Origin: Fidelibacterota bacterium
Lineage (GTDB): Bacteria > Fidelibacterota > Marinisomatia > Marinisomatales > UBA1611
Reading direction: 5' to 3'
DNA: 64,000 bases
Assembly (NCBI GenBank): GCA_018649625.1
Contig: JABIHN010000016.1
Location: 32,351 to 96,350, forward strand
Each line of letters starts with the position of its first letter. Positions within the stretch are counted from its first letter, which is position 1. This document shows positions 4,416-56,184 of this stretch, piece by piece. The notes below the pieces were generated by a model that was not told where the DNA came from, did no database searches, and was given only the letters and a program-made list of their open reading frames with translations. Both the position numbers and the translations under genes were made by a program.

Positions 4416-5108
4416 ATGAAAGTATCTGTCATCATTCCAGCTGCTGGTTCTGGCCAAAGGTTTGGAGAAGAAAAACAATTTAAATTGCTTGATGGACGAC
4501 CCTTACTTTTTCACACATTGATTCCATTTTTAAGGTCAGACTCTATTGATGAAGTGATTGTCGTTGTGCCAGATGTTGATGTTCAATCAATGCATCGAGA
4601 TCTTGTTTCGATTTCCGTTGGAAAACCAGTAAAGGTGGTGGCGGGGGGAAAGCGCCGACAGGATTCTGTAAAGAATGGTTTGATTGCATCTAATCCAGAT
4701 TCACAATTAATTTGTATCCATGATGCAGCAAGGCCATTTGTGACTGACAGCTTGATTAATAAAACTATAAATGCCTGCGAAAAATTTGATGGTTCGGTGG
4801 TGGCAATTCCTGTTAGTGATACTGTGAAGTATGCTGAAAATGAAGTCATTGTGAAAACGCTTGATCGTGAAAATATTTGGCTGGCACAAACACCTCAAAC
4901 ATTCAATAAAGAAAAATTACTTCAAGCATTAGATAATGCTGAAACAAACCCATTGACTGGAACAGATGAATCCGTTCTTATGGAAGCCATGGGATTCTCG
5001 ATTCAACTGGTGGAAGGACATCCGAATAATTTTAAAATCACAACAAAAGATGATTGGGGACGGGCTGAAGATTTTGCCGCGCGTCAAACTCAAGGCATAG
5101 CATTATGA
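4416..5108 (+). CDS. ispD: 2-C-methyl-D-erythritol 4-phosphate cytidylyltransferase IspD
   Basis: VIIPAAGSGQRFG, HDAARPFV, QTPQTF motifs. Confidence 0.97.
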   Translation: MKVSVIIPAAGSGQRFGEEKQFKLLDGRPLLFHTLIPFLRSDSIDEVIVVVPDVDVQSMHRDLVSISVGKPVKVVAGGKRRQDSVKNGLIASNPDSQLICIHDAARPFVTDSLINKTINACEKFDGSVVAIPVSDTVKYAENEVIVKTLDRENIWLAQTPQTFNKEKLLQALDNAETNPLTGTDESVLMEAMGFSIQLVEGHPNNFKITTKDDWGRAEDFAARQTQGIAL

Positions 5109-5578
5109 CCCGGACCGGAATCGGATATGATGTTCACCAATTAGCTGATGGTGAAAAACTTATCATCGGCGGTGTAGAAATTCCATCGCCTATTGGCTCC
5201 GTGGGACATTCAGACGGTGATGCATTGATTCATGCTGTAGTAGATGCTCTTTTGGGTGCCGCAGCTTTGGGCGACATTGGTCAATTTTTTCCCAGTGAAG
5301 ATGAAACTTGGAAAGGCGCTTCAAGTAGTCATTTTTTGGCTGATACTGTAAAAAGAATCGGTGATGCAGGATTTAGCATTAATAATGTGGATGCCACCAT
5401 CATTCTCCAAACACCAAAATTGGCAGAATATATTTCTCAAATGAAATATAACCTGGCCTACTCTATGCAAGTTGATGAATCACAAGTGTCGGTGAAGGCA
5501 ACCACAACAGATCGTCTTGGTTTTGTAGGCGATGGCTCGGGGTGGGCGGTGCAAGCAGTGGCGACACTTATAGTTTAA
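5105..5578 (+). CDS. ispF: 2-C-methyl-D-erythritol 2,4-cyclodiphosphate synthase IspF
   Basis: RTGIGYDVH, GGVEIP, GHSDGDALIHAVVDALLGA, KATTTDRLGFVG; 4-bp overlap with ispD. Confidence 0.98.
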   Translation: MTRTGIGYDVHQLADGEKLIIGGVEIPSPIGSVGHSDGDALIHAVVDALLGAAALGDIGQFFPSEDETWKGASSSHFLADTVKRIGDAGFSINNVDATIILQTPKLAEYISQMKYNLAYSMQVDESQVSVKATTTDRLGFVGDGSGWAVQAVATLIV

Positions 5579-5601
5579 TTCAATAAAATCCTTTAATTTC
5601 T

Positions 5602-6774
5602 GTGGCGATGAAGCCCAAGCCTATAATCACGATATTCATTATTGTTTTTAGCACCATATTTTCTTTAAACAGTTGTAAAAAAGATTTTGATGAAGAAAAT
5701 ATTCTGAATCTTGATGCATTAAATGGGATTATTTTGGATGCTGAATCGAATTTACCCATTGCAGGTGTTATCGTCCGTTTTTTGAATTCTGATTATAAAG
5801 ATACAACAGATCCAAATGGTGTATTTTCTTTTGGAGAAATAACAGTAGAAGATTCTCGACTTTTACTTAAGTCCGATTACTACTCAAGAGACACAATCCA
5901 AATCAATCAAGAACAGGAAGACACATTAAGTATTGTAATGGAACTCAAACCTCGGTATTCCTGGAAAATTCAAGGGAATATTGTCTTAGAAAACCAGGAA
6001 GAATATAGTAACGGACTTGCATTTATTGCCGGTCCACATATTGCCACATTAACAGATTCGGCCGGTTTATATCAATTTTCCATGTGGGAAGCAGATTCTG
6101 TATATACCGGTGCTGCAACCCTGTTTTTCTATCTCGAAGATTATTGGATAAAGACTTACGAAATTTTTTTAGAAAACGGCATTCCGGTGCTTGATACGCT
6201 GGATGTAGATGAGAATGGAACCTTGCTGGCAGAAAATCTAATTCAGATTTTTCAAGTTGACTTTTGGGCAGATGATTCGATTTATACTTTTGGAGATTCT
6301 ATCCATTATACCGTAAGTATTACCAATCCGTCAGACATTAACATTATAACTCTGGAAATCCCCATAACTGAAAGTAATGGGTTTGATTTTTACAGACATG
6401 TGGCTCTTTACTCTAATTCAACCTCTTGTGATTGTAGTATTCCAGATGGATTTCAAGAATGGACTTCAAGTATTTTTCCACAACGCACGACTATGATTAT
6501 TGATAAAGTAGGCGTCATCCCTGATTCGTGCAATTTAACCGGAAATTTTAATTTTGGATGTCCCGATACAGGTGATTTATTCCCTTTACCAATTGGCGTA
6601 TACGATTTAGGGATTTATTTTAAACCTTGGTATTCTGGCTCGAATACATTTCAAAAAGTTCTTAATTTTGTAAAAGAAGATTGGTTTACAAAAGGATTTA
6701 ATCAACGGCTTGATGGTAGGTCAAACATGTTCCCGAGTAAGTTTAAATTTCATCAAATTGAAATCACAGATTAG
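5602..6774 (+). CDS. Predicted lipoprotein with carboxypeptidase-regulatory-like domain
   Basis: Signal peptide with lipobox-like SLNSC; repeat domain LNGIILDAESNLPIAGVIVRF...DPNGVFSFGEI; paralogue of the 7417..8553 product. Start GTG 5602 or ATG 5608. Confidence 0.75.
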   Translation: MAMKPKPIITIFIIVFSTIFSLNSCKKDFDEENILNLDALNGIILDAESNLPIAGVIVRFLNSDYKDTTDPNGVFSFGEITVEDSRLLLKSDYYSRDTIQINQEQEDTLSIVMELKPRYSWKIQGNIVLENQEEYSNGLAFIAGPHIATLTDSAGLYQFSMWEADSVYTGAATLFFYLEDYWIKTYEIFLENGIPVLDTLDVDENGTLLAENLIQIFQVDFWADDSIYTFGDSIHYTVSITNPSDINIITLEIPITESNGFDFYRHVALYSNSTSCDCSIPDGFQEWTSSIFPQRTTMIIDKVGVIPDSCNLTGNFNFGCPDTGDLFPLPIGVYDLGIYFKPWYSGSNTFQKVLNFVKEDWFTKGFNQRLDGRSNMFPSKFKFHQIEITD

Positions 6775-50905: not shown

Positions 50906-52303
50906 ATGAAAGATAAATTAAAAAATAATCAAGGTCAAGAATTGGACGTAAAAACATCTGATTTGGATACTGTTATCGATGCCAATAAAAACCTCTATGA
51001 TAAGTTAAATAAACTGCCCGAGATTGAAGCTTTAGAAGCCATTGTCTTAGATGAAGAAATTGAAGATACATCTGCTGATAAATCTCATCCTTTTCTTAAA
51101 ATATTTAATAAGCTGCATGGTTTATATATTGAAAATGAGCTCGTTCGATATGCTGCTTGGTCAATTGTATTAATATTAATCTCAACATCTGCTCTTACAA
51201 TTGTTGAATATGATATGTTTAAAGAGAGCGTGACGGATCATGTTGGGGATACATTTATTTTTGGTGGGGATCAGCCAAATTGGTTAGATACATTTTTCCA
51301 CACATTTTGGTGGTCAATTGTTACATTTACCACTGTTGGGTATGGTGATGTAAGTCCAGTAACTCATCTTGGAAAATTTCTTACTATTATTATAATGCTT
51401 TTAAATTTTGGCGTCGTCACATTATTGGGCGGGGCTGTTGCATCTGTTTTGGTTGCACAACGATTAACGGGAGATGATACATTGGACGAAAATAAATTTA
51501 ATGGCCACTTGGTCATTGCGGGATGGAATTCATATGTTCCATCAATTTTAAAACTAATTGACGCCAATCAAGATGCAACAGATGTTGTTATTTTGGTGAA
51601 TGAAACAGACCCTGATATTATTCAGCGAGGGTTATCGGATTATGAAAGATTGGATATCACTCATATTCCTGAGAATTTTACCAATGAATCAACATTGAGG
51701 AAAGCATTTCTGGAAAAAGCGGATACTTTCATGATATTACCTGATAATTCAGGTTTATTGCCTCATGAGCAACCCGATGAAGATAAAACAGTCTTAACTT
51801 GTTTAACTGCAAAAGCTATTTCAGAATCTTGTAATGTTATTGCTCATGTTTTAGATCCTGAAAATGTTTCCCATCTTCAGCGAGCAAATGCAAATGAGAT
51901 TGTGATTCCCGACGATCATGTACCTCACCTTTTAGCAAAACACGTTACTGATCCGGGTGTCCCACAATTTTTTGATGATCTCATATTACAGGAAGAAAAA
52001 GATAAGGGGCTCCAAGAAGTTAAAATACCAAAAAGTTTAATTGGAAAAGCTCATAATAAAATATCTGCTTTTTATAAATTCAAATACAATTGGCTTTTAG
52101 TTGGGTATGCGGTACGAAAAGCTGGATTTAGTTTAGATGATCAAATGGGAGAGAGTGGTAGTCCACTTATTCGAAGTATGATTAGGGAGCAGTTGGAAGG
52201 TGCGGGAGTTAATCTAACAAGTGATGAACATGTAGTTGTGGAAATTAACCCATCGGATGACTATAAAATTGATGAAAAACATAGCGCATTGGTCTTGAGG
52301 TAA
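50906..52303 (+). CDS. Potassium channel with C-terminal RCK/TrkA-N-like regions
   Basis: TM helices plus pore/selectivity filter FTTVGYGDVSP; cytosolic HLVIAGWNSYVPSILKLID nucleotide-binding-like fold. Confidence 0.92.
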   Translation: MKDKLKNNQGQELDVKTSDLDTVIDANKNLYDKLNKLPEIEALEAIVLDEEIEDTSADKSHPFLKIFNKLHGLYIENELVRYAAWSIVLILISTSALTIVEYDMFKESVTDHVGDTFIFGGDQPNWLDTFFHTFWWSIVTFTTVGYGDVSPVTHLGKFLTIIIMLLNFGVVTLLGGAVASVLVAQRLTGDDTLDENKFNGHLVIAGWNSYVPSILKLIDANQDATDVVILVNETDPDIIQRGLSDYERLDITHIPENFTNESTLRKAFLEKADTFMILPDNSGLLPHEQPDEDKTVLTCLTAKAISESCNVIAHVLDPENVSHLQRANANEIVIPDDHVPHLLAKHVTDPGVPQFFDDLILQEEKDKGLQEVKIPKSLIGKAHNKISAFYKFKYNWLLVGYAVRKAGFSLDDQMGESGSPLIRSMIREQLEGAGVNLTSDEHVVVEINPSDDYKIDEKHSALVLR

Positions 52304-52306
52304 AAT

Positions 52307-52870
52307 ATGAATCCTACAGCAGAACAAATACAAAAGATTAACCATTTTAGTAAAGTACCTTTGGATATGTGTAAGAAAATTGCTTCAGCGGTTGAATTAC
52401 AGGAATGTCAGCCTAAAAAAGCCTTATTGACTGAAGGAGACACAGGTGATACCATGGTCCTTGTTTTTCAAGGACAAGTTGAAGTGTCAAAAAATATGAT
52501 GGTAAAAACAGCCAGTGGACTGGCAACATCAAGAAAACCGATTATTCGTTTAGAAACAACAGACCCTCCACCAAAATCGCCACCTATAACAGAGCCTACT
52601 GTTTTTGTGGTTGAAGCACCTGCGTTTGGAATTGGTGAATTTTCACTCGTTTTAGATGATGCAATCCGGACGGCTCATGTTCATGCAACTACACCTGTTC
52701 AATATGGAATTCTTACCTTAGAAGATTTTTCACGGATTGTAAAAGACAATCCTGAAATTGGTGGATTTGTATATTTTGAAGTTGCGAAGGCTGCAGTGCA
52801 AAATTTGGCAACAGCCAGCGCTGATATATCAAACCTAACTCAAGCTTTCTTTTTTGCTTTAACTAGATAG
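52307..52870 (+). CDS. Cyclic nucleotide-binding-like domain protein
   Basis: LTEGDTGDTMVLVFQGQVEVSKN and FGIGEFSLVLDDAIRTAHVHATTPVQYGILTLEDF, resembling the phosphate-binding cassette FGE..L...RxA. Confidence 0.75.
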   Translation: MNPTAEQIQKINHFSKVPLDMCKKIASAVELQECQPKKALLTEGDTGDTMVLVFQGQVEVSKNMMVKTASGLATSRKPIIRLETTDPPPKSPPITEPTVFVVEAPAFGIGEFSLVLDDAIRTAHVHATTPVQYGILTLEDFSRIVKDNPEIGGFVYFEVAKAAVQNLATASADISNLTQAFFFALTR

Positions 52871-52901: not shown

Positions 52902-55154
52902 CTATTTTTGAATTTCTAACCTTTCACCCGATTTAGGTTTTTTTATTTCCAGATCCAATTCCCAAATAGCAACAGCATCTTGGATAAGCATCACTTCATT
53001 CTCATGAATAAATTCATCTGCATTTGCAATATCGATGAATGAATTGAGAAGGGCATGCAATTGACCCGAATTTATTTCATCTGACTTTTTGATGTTCAAT
53101 AATGAATCTTCATACTGTTTTTGTCTTGAGCCTTCATTTTTAAGATCAATGAATTTTCCGGTAGCCAAACCAAAATCTATATTAAAACTCTCATTTGTAA
53201 CGTCCTTTACAAATTTCCCAAAACTCTCAAATATAACGCCTTTCTCTGATTCATCAATTTCCTGATCAGCAAAAAAGGAAATACATAAAAGAGAATAAAG
53301 AATATCGTGATCCAAAGTCCAATCCACTTTTGGTTCATCTTCAGATTTTTCACGAGCCGAAATTTTGCGCTGTAAATCTTCCATACGCTCTTTATCTGCA
53401 TCATTTAAGTATCCATCCTGTTTTTGGCGTTTTTGCATCAATTTATCGGCTTCAAGGGATAAGAATTGCACATCACGTTCAAGAGCTTCCAGTCGATTAT
53501 CCATGAGCTGGAATAGGAGTTCTTTAAATTTTTCCAGCTGATCTTTTTCTGGTGCGAAATAAATATTTAGATTACCACGGTCAGTATCTTCCCAAAAGGT
53601 GGGTCCAAAAATAGATAATAGAAAGCATTGAGTATTAGCGTTTGCTTTAAAAGATTTTTCATCAAAGTAAGCAAGGTCATCCAAATAATCTTCTGCGATG
53701 GCAGTGGCAAAATCTTTTTTATCTACTGATAAATAGAAAAGTGCTAGTCCAATTTGAATTCTCCGAGTTCCATTATTCCCACCTAAAATTCCTTTATCCA
53801 CTCCATCTTTTGAATAGCCAGGCGGTTTATCTAATTGAAGTACAAGTTTCAATAAATCCATTTGATCTTCATCGTTCCATCCTTTTTCATGAATGAGGAC
53901 TTGACACTTTCTTAATTCAAATGTGAGTGTATCTACAATAAAGTAAAGAGATGGATTTCCTTCAGCATTTTTATAAATATCATTAGCGTAGAATTTGAAT
54001 TTATCATAACAATACTTTGCCATATCTACCCGATCAGCTTTGACGTATTCCTGAATCATATTTGAATAATGAAATGACAGATTATACAAATTTCGAGGTT
54101 CATTGTTTTTATATGCATGCTTCATGGCAAACCGAAAAAGAGTATTAAACCGGATATTCACATTATCCATAATTATATTATCATCCATTTCGATACATGT
54201 AATTCCAATATCCACTAACTCAGCAGGAATGAGAGATGCAATATCAAAACGGTCATTTTCAATCATTTTTATATACGAATTCCCTAATAGTCGAAATGTT
54301 TTAATTTCATAAAAGGTTAGAGAGTCAGCCATATCTTGATATTGAATATCTGTATAAGTCCGAAAGGTTGCATTTGCTTTGATTGTAGATGTAAGATGAA
54401 AAAAAGTTGGATTAAAGCTCGATTTTTCACGAATGTAGGTTTGAATAATTGTACTAATCTCGCTGATAATTTCTGTCTGCGTTTCTTTGAATTCTGTAAA
54501 TGCCAACAAATCATCTAATTGGTCTAATGACCCCATAATTTCTTTTTGATATTCTTCCACAACATCAATGTTATTTTTCATAGCAGAGAAGATAGACGGT
54601 TTATTCATTTTATAGATAAATGATTTTATTATACCCGAAATTGTGATTACAACATTACTTGTTTTTGAATAAAGTAATATATAAAAAATGTATGGTAGAG
54701 TAAAAATAGAAGCGAGAAAAAGATAGACATACGTGTTTAATACAACACTTGATACACGGCCTAAAGGCTCAACGTAAAACATAATTATAACAGCGTGCAA
54801 AGATGCAATAATTAAAAACCATACATAATTTATGCTCAACCAGTCTTTGACAAAGAGGTCCATTAATTTTGGCGATGATTCAGCTGCAATAGCAACCACA
54901 ATGATTAAAGTTCCTAAAACCATTGCTAAAACGCCTCCCCATATTTCAGGAGCAAAACCAAGGTCAATGTTTTTATGGTCTGATAATACTATATTGAAAG
55001 TTGTTTCTAGAAAATTCGCAATAGATGGAAAATATGAATGAAATAGAATATCAGTAATTATTATAGAAATAAAAACTAAGACAAAACTAATAATAGTTCG
55101 GTACTGAAATTGAAGGCTATTTAATTTTACTAGAGTTAGATAAATTTTTTCCAT
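52902..55154 (-). CDS. 4-TM membrane protein with helical cytosolic region and C-terminal TerB-like domain
   Basis: N-terminal hydrophobic segments; C-terminus DWTLDHDILYSLLCISFFADQEIDESEKG...ANADEFIHENEVMLIQDAV homologous to the 55469..55900 product. Confidence 0.7.
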   Translation of the reverse strand: MEKIYLTLVKLNSLQFQYRTIISFVLVFISIIITDILFHSYFPSIANFLETTFNIVLSDHKNIDLGFAPEIWGGVLAMVLGTLIIVVAIAAESSPKLMDLFVKDWLSINYVWFLIIASLHAVIIMFYVEPLGRVSSVVLNTYVYLFLASIFTLPYIFYILLYSKTSNVVITISGIIKSFIYKMNKPSIFSAMKNNIDVVEEYQKEIMGSLDQLDDLLAFTEFKETQTEIISEISTIIQTYIREKSSFNPTFFHLTSTIKANATFRTYTDIQYQDMADSLTFYEIKTFRLLGNSYIKMIENDRFDIASLIPAELVDIGITCIEMDDNIIMDNVNIRFNTLFRFAMKHAYKNNEPRNLYNLSFHYSNMIQEYVKADRVDMAKYCYDKFKFYANDIYKNAEGNPSLYFIVDTLTFELRKCQVLIHEKGWNDEDQMDLLKLVLQLDKPPGYSKDGVDKGILGGNNGTRRIQIGLALFYLSVDKKDFATAIAEDYLDDLAYFDEKSFKANANTQCFLLSIFGPTFWEDTDRGNLNIYFAPEKDQLEKFKELLFQLMDNRLEALERDVQFLSLEADKLMQKRQKQDGYLNDADKERMEDLQRKISAREKSEDEPKVDWTLDHDILYSLLCISFFADQEIDESEKGVIFESFGKFVKDVTNESFNIDFGLATGKFIDLKNEGSRQKQYEDSLLNIKKSDEINSGQLHALLNSFIDIANADEFIHENEVMLIQDAVAIWELDLEIKKPKSGERLEIQK

Positions 55155-55468: not shown

Positions 55469-55900
55469 ATGGCAAATTGGACTCAAAATCATGATTTGGT
55501 TTATGCGTTCGTCTGTGTATCATTTTTAGCAGATGGAGAAGTAGATGAATCTGAAAAAGAAGCCATGCGTGGCAATGTGAAAGTAATGTTACCTGAAGTA
55601 TCTGATGATATGTACAACGCAATGGAAGCTGAAGTAATCGATAAATTTATCGATCTTGGTGATGAAGCAACTCGTATGAATCAATATGGTACATCTTTGG
55701 AATCGCTCAAAGGGATGTTTTCATCCGACGATGATCGTTTCAAAGTAATTAAAAATCTAGCATATATCGCACGTGCAGATGATTTTATCCATGATAATGA
55801 AATGGCAATGATCGAACAAGCTGTGAGTATTTTGGATATGAAAGATAAAGTAAGTTTGGTTAAAACTGAATCAACATTGTTTGTTGATTTAAAAAACTAA
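55469..55900 (+). CDS. Stand-alone TerB-like domain protein
   Basis: SD AGGGG; NWTQNHDLVYAFVCVSFLADGEVDESEKE...ARADDFIHDNEMAMIEQAVSIL, two acidic TerB-like motifs. Confidence 0.75.
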   Translation: MANWTQNHDLVYAFVCVSFLADGEVDESEKEAMRGNVKVMLPEVSDDMYNAMEAEVIDKFIDLGDEATRMNQYGTSLESLKGMFSSDDDRFKVIKNLAYIARADDFIHDNEMAMIEQAVSILDMKDKVSLVKTESTLFVDLKN

Positions 55901-55924
55901 ATTTATTACAAAAAAAATAAGATT

Positions 55925-55960
55925 AATAACCCTGGAGAACCCGGGGTTATTATATTTTAT
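55925..55960 (+). terminator. Stem-loop/terminator between the TerB-like gene and the RD-rich small ORF
   Basis: AATAACCCTGG-AGAAC-CCGGGGTTATT 11-bp stem (one G-U), followed by T-rich TATATTTTATT. Confidence 0.65.
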
Positions 55961-55972
55961 TAGGAGAATATA

Positions 55973-56155
55973 TTGAATCAAAATAAGCGAGCATCTGACC
56001 GTAGAGACAATGATCGACGAGATTTAGAAAGGCGCTCTAATATCAGACGTGAATCTGAATCATCTGTTGAATCAGACAAAAGATCACCCGATGAACGGAG
56101 AATGGATAGTCGGCGAGATAATAGTCGGCGATCTAGTGCGGAAAGACGAGATTAA
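55973..56155 (+). CDS. 60-aa Arg/Asp/Ser-rich mini-protein
   Basis: SD AGGAGA about 8 nt before a TTG start; 18 of 60 residues Arg, arranged as repeated (D/E/S)RR. Bracketed by two hairpins. Confidence 0.65.
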   Translation: MNQNKRASDRRDNDRRDLERRSNIRRESESSVESDKRSPDERRMDSRRDNSRRSSAERRD

Positions 56156-56157
56156 TT

Positions 56158-56184
56158 AAAGGGCAGAATTACTGCCCTTTTTAT
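56158..56184. terminator. Bidirectional terminator between the RD-rich ORF and aroQ
   Basis: AAAGGGCAG-AATTA-CTGCCCTTT followed by TTATTTAAA; located between convergent genes. Confidence 0.8.

Follow-up and report, generated by a model that had tools for sequence, protein, structure and literature searches.

An arginine-pair mini-gene adjoins a TerB-like gene

We examined a 64,000-nucleotide stretch of DNA (the window) from a 2.39 Mb Candidatus Neomarinimicrobiota genome, in which a small open reading frame closes an island of ion channel and TerB-like genes. On the forward strand, a K+ channel with Ion_trans_2 and TrkA_N domains (50906..52303), assigned by domain search and kept at the locus in relatives, is followed by a cyclic-nucleotide-binding-like domain protein that scored just under the Pfam cut-off (52307..52870). 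Next, on the reverse strand, comes the gene of a 750-aa membrane protein (52902..55154), for which we obtained no confident Pfam match and whose C-terminal TerB-like domain matches the TerB of its own genome (E = 3.5e-22). Divergently oriented from it is the forward-strand gene of an acidic TerB-like protein of 143 aa with a net charge of -15 (55469..55900; Pfam PF05099, E = 1.5e-10). The mini-gene itself follows on the same strand (55973..56155) and encodes a 60-aa protein from a TTG start, behind a good Shine-Dalgarno sequence, AGGAGA (55962..55967); direct reading gave a protein identical in sequence to that of the original prediction.

The mini-protein carries eight arginine (RR) pairs, at positions 10, 15, 20 and 25, then 42, 47, 52 and 58, with a central element, ESSVESDKR, between the two halves. 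The pairs had been described as mostly preceded by D, E or S, and this holds for seven of the eight (D, D, E, I, E, S, S and E, in order). All six arginine codons are in use, as had been claimed (CGA 6, AGA 5, CGG 3, CGT 2, CGC 1, AGG 1). The number of pairs is unexceptional for the composition, with eight or more arising in 15,228 of 200,000 residue shuffles. The spacing sets the protein apart: five of the gaps between successive pairs are of exactly five residues, a count reached by 0 of 200,000 shuffles, and other reading frames of the window hold at most 3 RR per 60 aa. Neither this exact five-residue register nor the central element had been part of the original prediction.

The reading frame is conserved in relatives

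Conservation was assessed in 60 relatives plus the host genome, among which a stand-alone TerB-like protein was found in 24 genomes of one family-level clade (f1), the host included. An RR frame of 50–68 aa begins 69–98 nt past the end of the TerB match in 22 of these 24 genomes; in a further one (G031) the mini-gene lies on another contig, behind a fragment of the TerB end, giving 23 of 24, and the single exception is G005, where TerB is present and the mini-gene was not found. The start codons, whether ATG, GTG or TTG, fall in one alignment column. Codon changes are mostly at third positions, pairwise dN/dS is 0.14–0.52 (pairs where computable), and between close pairs 20–65% of conserved arginine positions use differing codons. 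The protein diverges fast next to TerB, whose mean column identity is 83%. From the conserved frame, the low dN/dS and the retention of arginine through codon change, we conclude that the ORF is a real gene under selection at the protein level, as originally proposed; loss of the frame in relatives, named at the outset as an observation that would count against it, was looked for and the frame was conserved instead. A DNA microsatellite or a chance frame is ruled out by the codon variation, the dN/dS values and the five-residue register.

One f1 genome (G004) carries two tandem copies of the mini-gene (L022 974-1418), the second resembling the MEEHREK subclade, and from this pair the two mini-gene subclades may be old paralogues.

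A terminator-like hairpin separates TerB from the mini-gene

The stem-loop noted upstream of the ORF and the terminator noted downstream are both present. Between TerB and the mini-gene, a hairpin on the forward strand (55924..55952; z = -4.9) has the layout of an intrinsic terminator, a GC-rich stem followed by a U tract, with 12 pairs and the tail TATTTTATTA; its position is conserved. Past the mini-gene lies a forward-strand intrinsic terminator (56158..56180; z = -4.6). Both structures exceed shuffled sequence in stability by a wide margin, and only 0.3 terminator-like sites would be expected in this stretch.

Across f1, the gap between TerB and the mini-gene holds a stem of dG <= -10 kcal/mol in 19 of 22 genomes and a weak hairpin in the other 3, and the hairpin sequence is variable. 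In the f1 alignment, 74.5% of cells are paired at the named 11-pair stem (35–60% when the stem is slid), and its covariation score was reached by 0 of 500 shuffles. RNAalifold returned no pairs on the intergenic alignment, which is probably poor there, and an Rfam search gave just matches far under the gathering scores. In most f1 genomes the hairpin ends 10–29 nt ahead of the start codon. Because this leaves little room for a promoter past the hairpin, the f1 mini-gene is probably expressed by read-through of the hairpin or from a promoter overlapping it; a search of the forward strand gave no sigma-70-like promoter, and the phylum may use others.

Related modules occur across the phylum

We searched the phylum with profiles built from these sequences. 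Built from the f1 members, profile A1 detected related sequences in further families of the same order; profile A3 matched 68 of 245 phylum genomes at E<=1e-3, and A5 placed the module in 90 of 245 at E<=1e-4, with up to 10 copies per genome. Because many of the 245 assemblies are fragmented, an absence counts for little. In its own genome the window mini-protein scores E=3.6e-14 with A3, of which it is itself a row; the broader A5 did not recover it there at E<=1e-4.

Members are mostly free-standing proteins of 45–65 aa, in which RR units recur at 5-residue intervals up to a central (P)V-xx-[DE]RR element and resume after it; the last RR gap is typically 6 residues in f1. We defined the family by at least 4 RR pairs, set 5 or 6 residues apart, on both sides of a V-containing central element, most of them D/E-preceded, and the window mini-protein has this arrangement around SSVESDKR. 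Aspartate or glutamate stands before 73% of RR pairs, against 20% D+E in the overall composition. Short DRR tracts also occur in other bacterial proteins.

Whether a register is shared beyond composition was judged on the f1 set, which is defined by synteny and hence free of profile-selection bias. A profile trained on clade f8 scored this set at a median of 21.8 bits, against -2.5 for shuffles that preserve the RR units, which exceeded the real sequences in 5 of 2100 trials; the f20-trained profile gave 17.2 bits against -3.5, exceeded in 23 of 2100 trials. All cross-clade scores have medians of 17–40 bits, and residue shuffles and xRR-keeping shuffles medians of <=5 bits, although the f8, f20 and f30 sets were gathered with profiles and their cross-scores are thereby inflated. 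Scores so far above shuffles argue for a family with a register beyond composition. Searches of Pfam, NCBIfam, PHROG and PDB gave no convincing match, and the literature that we searched held no prior description of an RR mini-protein. Low-complexity masking makes uninformative a tblastn search of plasmids and phages that gave no match (plasmids even at E=10). Judged by profile and register, this is an uncatalogued mini-protein family across Neomarinimicrobiota (90 of 245 sampled genomes).

The mini-protein has a net charge of +5, with members ranging from +1 to +14, and the family composition is 58% charged with few hydrophobics. AlphaFold2 (47 and 21 sequences) returned low-confidence models (pLDDT 68–69, pTM 0.21–0.24) without a compact fold, in keeping with a mostly disordered protein.

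Neighbours and fusion partners differ between clades

In f1 the island runs from the K+ channel with TrkA-N through the cNMP-binding-like protein, the 750-aa membrane protein (kept at the locus across f1) and TerB to the mini-gene. The gene beyond varies by subclade (aroQ or another convergent gene) and the TerB/mini-gene pair is constant. The same parts recur in clade f18 (MED589 contig, L099) in rearranged order, with the mini-gene 33 nt ahead of TerB, then the membrane protein, and a divergent K+ channel beside them (4552-5607), which argues for functional linkage. Taken whole, the island looks like an undescribed ion/stress system.

Elsewhere the neighbours are different. Here TerB, K+ channel, cNMP-binding, RRM, cyclase, thioredoxin, GAF, PD40 and aroQ are profile-tested names, and the others were read from sequence. 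The f8 mini-gene adjoins a long PD40 beta-propeller-type protein and that of f30 a putative dipeptidase-like gene; f20 neighbours include GAF proteins and putative trpE, RND/TonB-type and prmC/prfA genes, and four genomes (L120, L125, L130, L171) have the mini-gene immediately ahead of a trpE-like gene. Paralogues in f20 that share a neighbour also share a short C-terminal tail: TFLADF/TFLADV/TFIAEA beside trpE (the fourth trpE neighbour differs, YILAEES), LYSFYSLIA/LYSFYVSIT/LYSTFISTF beside GAF, and SHIL/LSQIL beside RND/TonB. Groups of three RR-module ORFs within 1.4–2 kb also occur in f20 (L192 1704-3058, L127 2491-4477), and the GAF proteins by two f20 mini-genes (L122 3071-3892, L124 1420-2316) have N-termini like degenerate RR modules.

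The module is also found fused to other domains. In G198 it occupies residues 80–148, C-terminal to an RRM (PF00076, 1.7e-12), and G196 has a similar RRM-type protein with the module as its tail (RRM + RR-tail proteins, L188 1656-2111 and L189 1675-2154), a fusion known from two genomes of one genus only. In G089 the module sits on the N-terminal side of a TM helix and a thioredoxin/redoxin domain, and in G182 it precedes a class III cyclase/AAA/TPR protein in the same way. G101 and G102 carry it C-terminally of a single TM helix, next to putative UspA-like genes (read from sequence). By the positive-inside rule, the membrane-anchored modules would face the cytoplasm.

A multivalent tether is proposed as the best explanation

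Taken together, these features point, if tentatively, to a cytoplasmic, disordered arginine-pair tether that binds a polyanion, likeliest RNA, and acts on clients encoded beside it or fused to it, either recruiting or tuning them; here the client would be TerB. The mini-protein would consist of [D/E]RRxx units flanking a short (P)V element at its centre. Every arginine pair would grip a negatively charged partner, and the acid ahead of each pair would temper the binding, making the tether multivalent and reversible. RNA would be the likeliest common ligand on account of the RRM fusion; as most clades have neither TerB nor RRM beside the mini-gene, a common ligand can only be inferred. Some members have a low net charge, which speaks against simple, strong binding of nucleic acids. 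What differs between members (terminal tails, fused domains and neighbouring genes) would set the specific client, which here would most likely be the acidic TerB and/or the TerB-domain membrane protein, within the K+-channel/cyclic-nucleotide/TerB island. Expression would come from read-through of the upstream hairpin or an overlapping promoter. The nucleic-acid binding or condensate function originally suggested for the mini-protein is plausible, with the RRM fusion as indirect support for RNA binding; composition and the low-confidence AlphaFold2 models are what bears on condensates. A broader version, which we consider rather unlikely, makes the portable pentad-register module a phylum-wide cytoplasmic addressing system in which one shared polyanionic scaffold gathers the clients and paralogue-specific tails name them; its clients would be RNA-binding, cyclase, thioredoxin, efflux, trpE-linked and TerB/K+-channel proteins.

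Opposite charges at the locus (-15 for TerB, -13 for the membrane protein's TerB domain, +5 for the mini-protein) invite another reading, in which the mini-protein is a dedicated TerB partner that binds TerB and the TerB domain of the 750-aa protein directly, regulating or bridging them, with nucleic acids uninvolved. The two genes adjoin in 23 of 24 f1 genomes and lie 33 nt apart in f18. However, TerB is not a neighbour of the f8, f20 and f30 members, G005 keeps TerB without the mini-gene, and the mini-protein diverges fast beside an 83% conserved TerB; we regard this possibility as doubtful. It is improbable, too, that the mini-protein acts through its tandem RxxD/DRR units as a binder or sink of c-di-GMP or a related messenger, by analogy with the Cle proteins. 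At least two R-x-x-[DE] motifs occur in 56 of 63 members, Arg-rich short peptides are able to bind c-di-GMP (PMC5677366), a nucleotide cyclase is among the fusion partners, and the island includes a cNMP-binding-like protein, yet the Cle motif [YF]xGP[DE][RK]R and the PilZ signature are found in 0 of 63 members. A GGDEF protein does accompany the module in nearly all genomes that carry it; with GGDEF in 191 of 245 genomes, this co-occurrence is uninformative, and G022 (93% complete) and G015 have the module with no GGDEF detected, which assembly gaps may explain.

The 58% charged content, few hydrophobics and lack of a compact AlphaFold2 model would equally suit a general protective or crowding polyampholyte, hydrophilin- or Hero-like, for which composition alone matters and which has no specific ligand. 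Such a protein has little chance of accounting for a strict five-residue spacing and a central element that the clades share to an extent not explained by composition, or for the single-copy genes with fixed neighbours per clade, the fusions and the specialised tails, which argue for specific partners. Finally, a conserved hairpin immediately upstream of the mini-gene could mean that the element acts as RNA, as a leader or linked to the terminator, with the frame incidental; this is extremely improbable, since third-position changes, low dN/dS and arginine encoded by different codons contradict it, and other clades have the protein without an obvious hairpin.

What began as a possible annotation artefact has become a defined family, carried by more than a third of the genomes sampled from an abundant marine phylum that is mostly uncultured. 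Because the module is short, repetitive and bound to a register, synthetic peptides could serve to test its ligand, and the mini-protein is a concrete candidate partner for the island's TerB. Should the tether hold true, bacteria would attach unrelated proteins to one scaffold by a 50-residue tag.

Comparison with known systems

The closest characterised short Arg-rich binder that we found is the ARR of Cle proteins, a short Arg-rich peptide that binds c-di-GMP, is sufficient for binding and can be grafted; it consists of tandem [YF]xGP[DE][RK]R motifs C-terminal to a CheY-like domain (PMC5677366). Both it and the mini-protein are short and Arg-rich, with repeated [DE]RR. Unlike the ARR, the mini-protein stands alone at 60 aa with no receiver domain and no Pfam match, and the motif occurs in 0 of 63 members. 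With both the tandem motif and the CheY-like receiver domain missing, we rejected a Cle-type c-di-GMP-binding ARR, and we likewise rejected a PilZ domain, which is defined by RxxxR ... [DN]xSxxG and a beta-barrel (signature in 0 of 63 members; no Pfam match).

TerB (PF05099) is the genomic partner in f1 and f18, and the mini-protein bears no similarity to it. Among bacterial RRM proteins with a C-terminal tail (PF00076), the RR module is such a tail in G196 and G198, whereas the window protein and nearly all its relatives stand alone, without an RRM.

Arginine-rich, disordered regions that bind RNA and form condensates, such as those of RNase E bodies, are long tails of enzymes. As a class, the mini-protein resembles these regions in being disordered, mixed-charge and Arg-rich, but it is mostly a free-standing protein of 45–65 aa, built on a strict pentad register.
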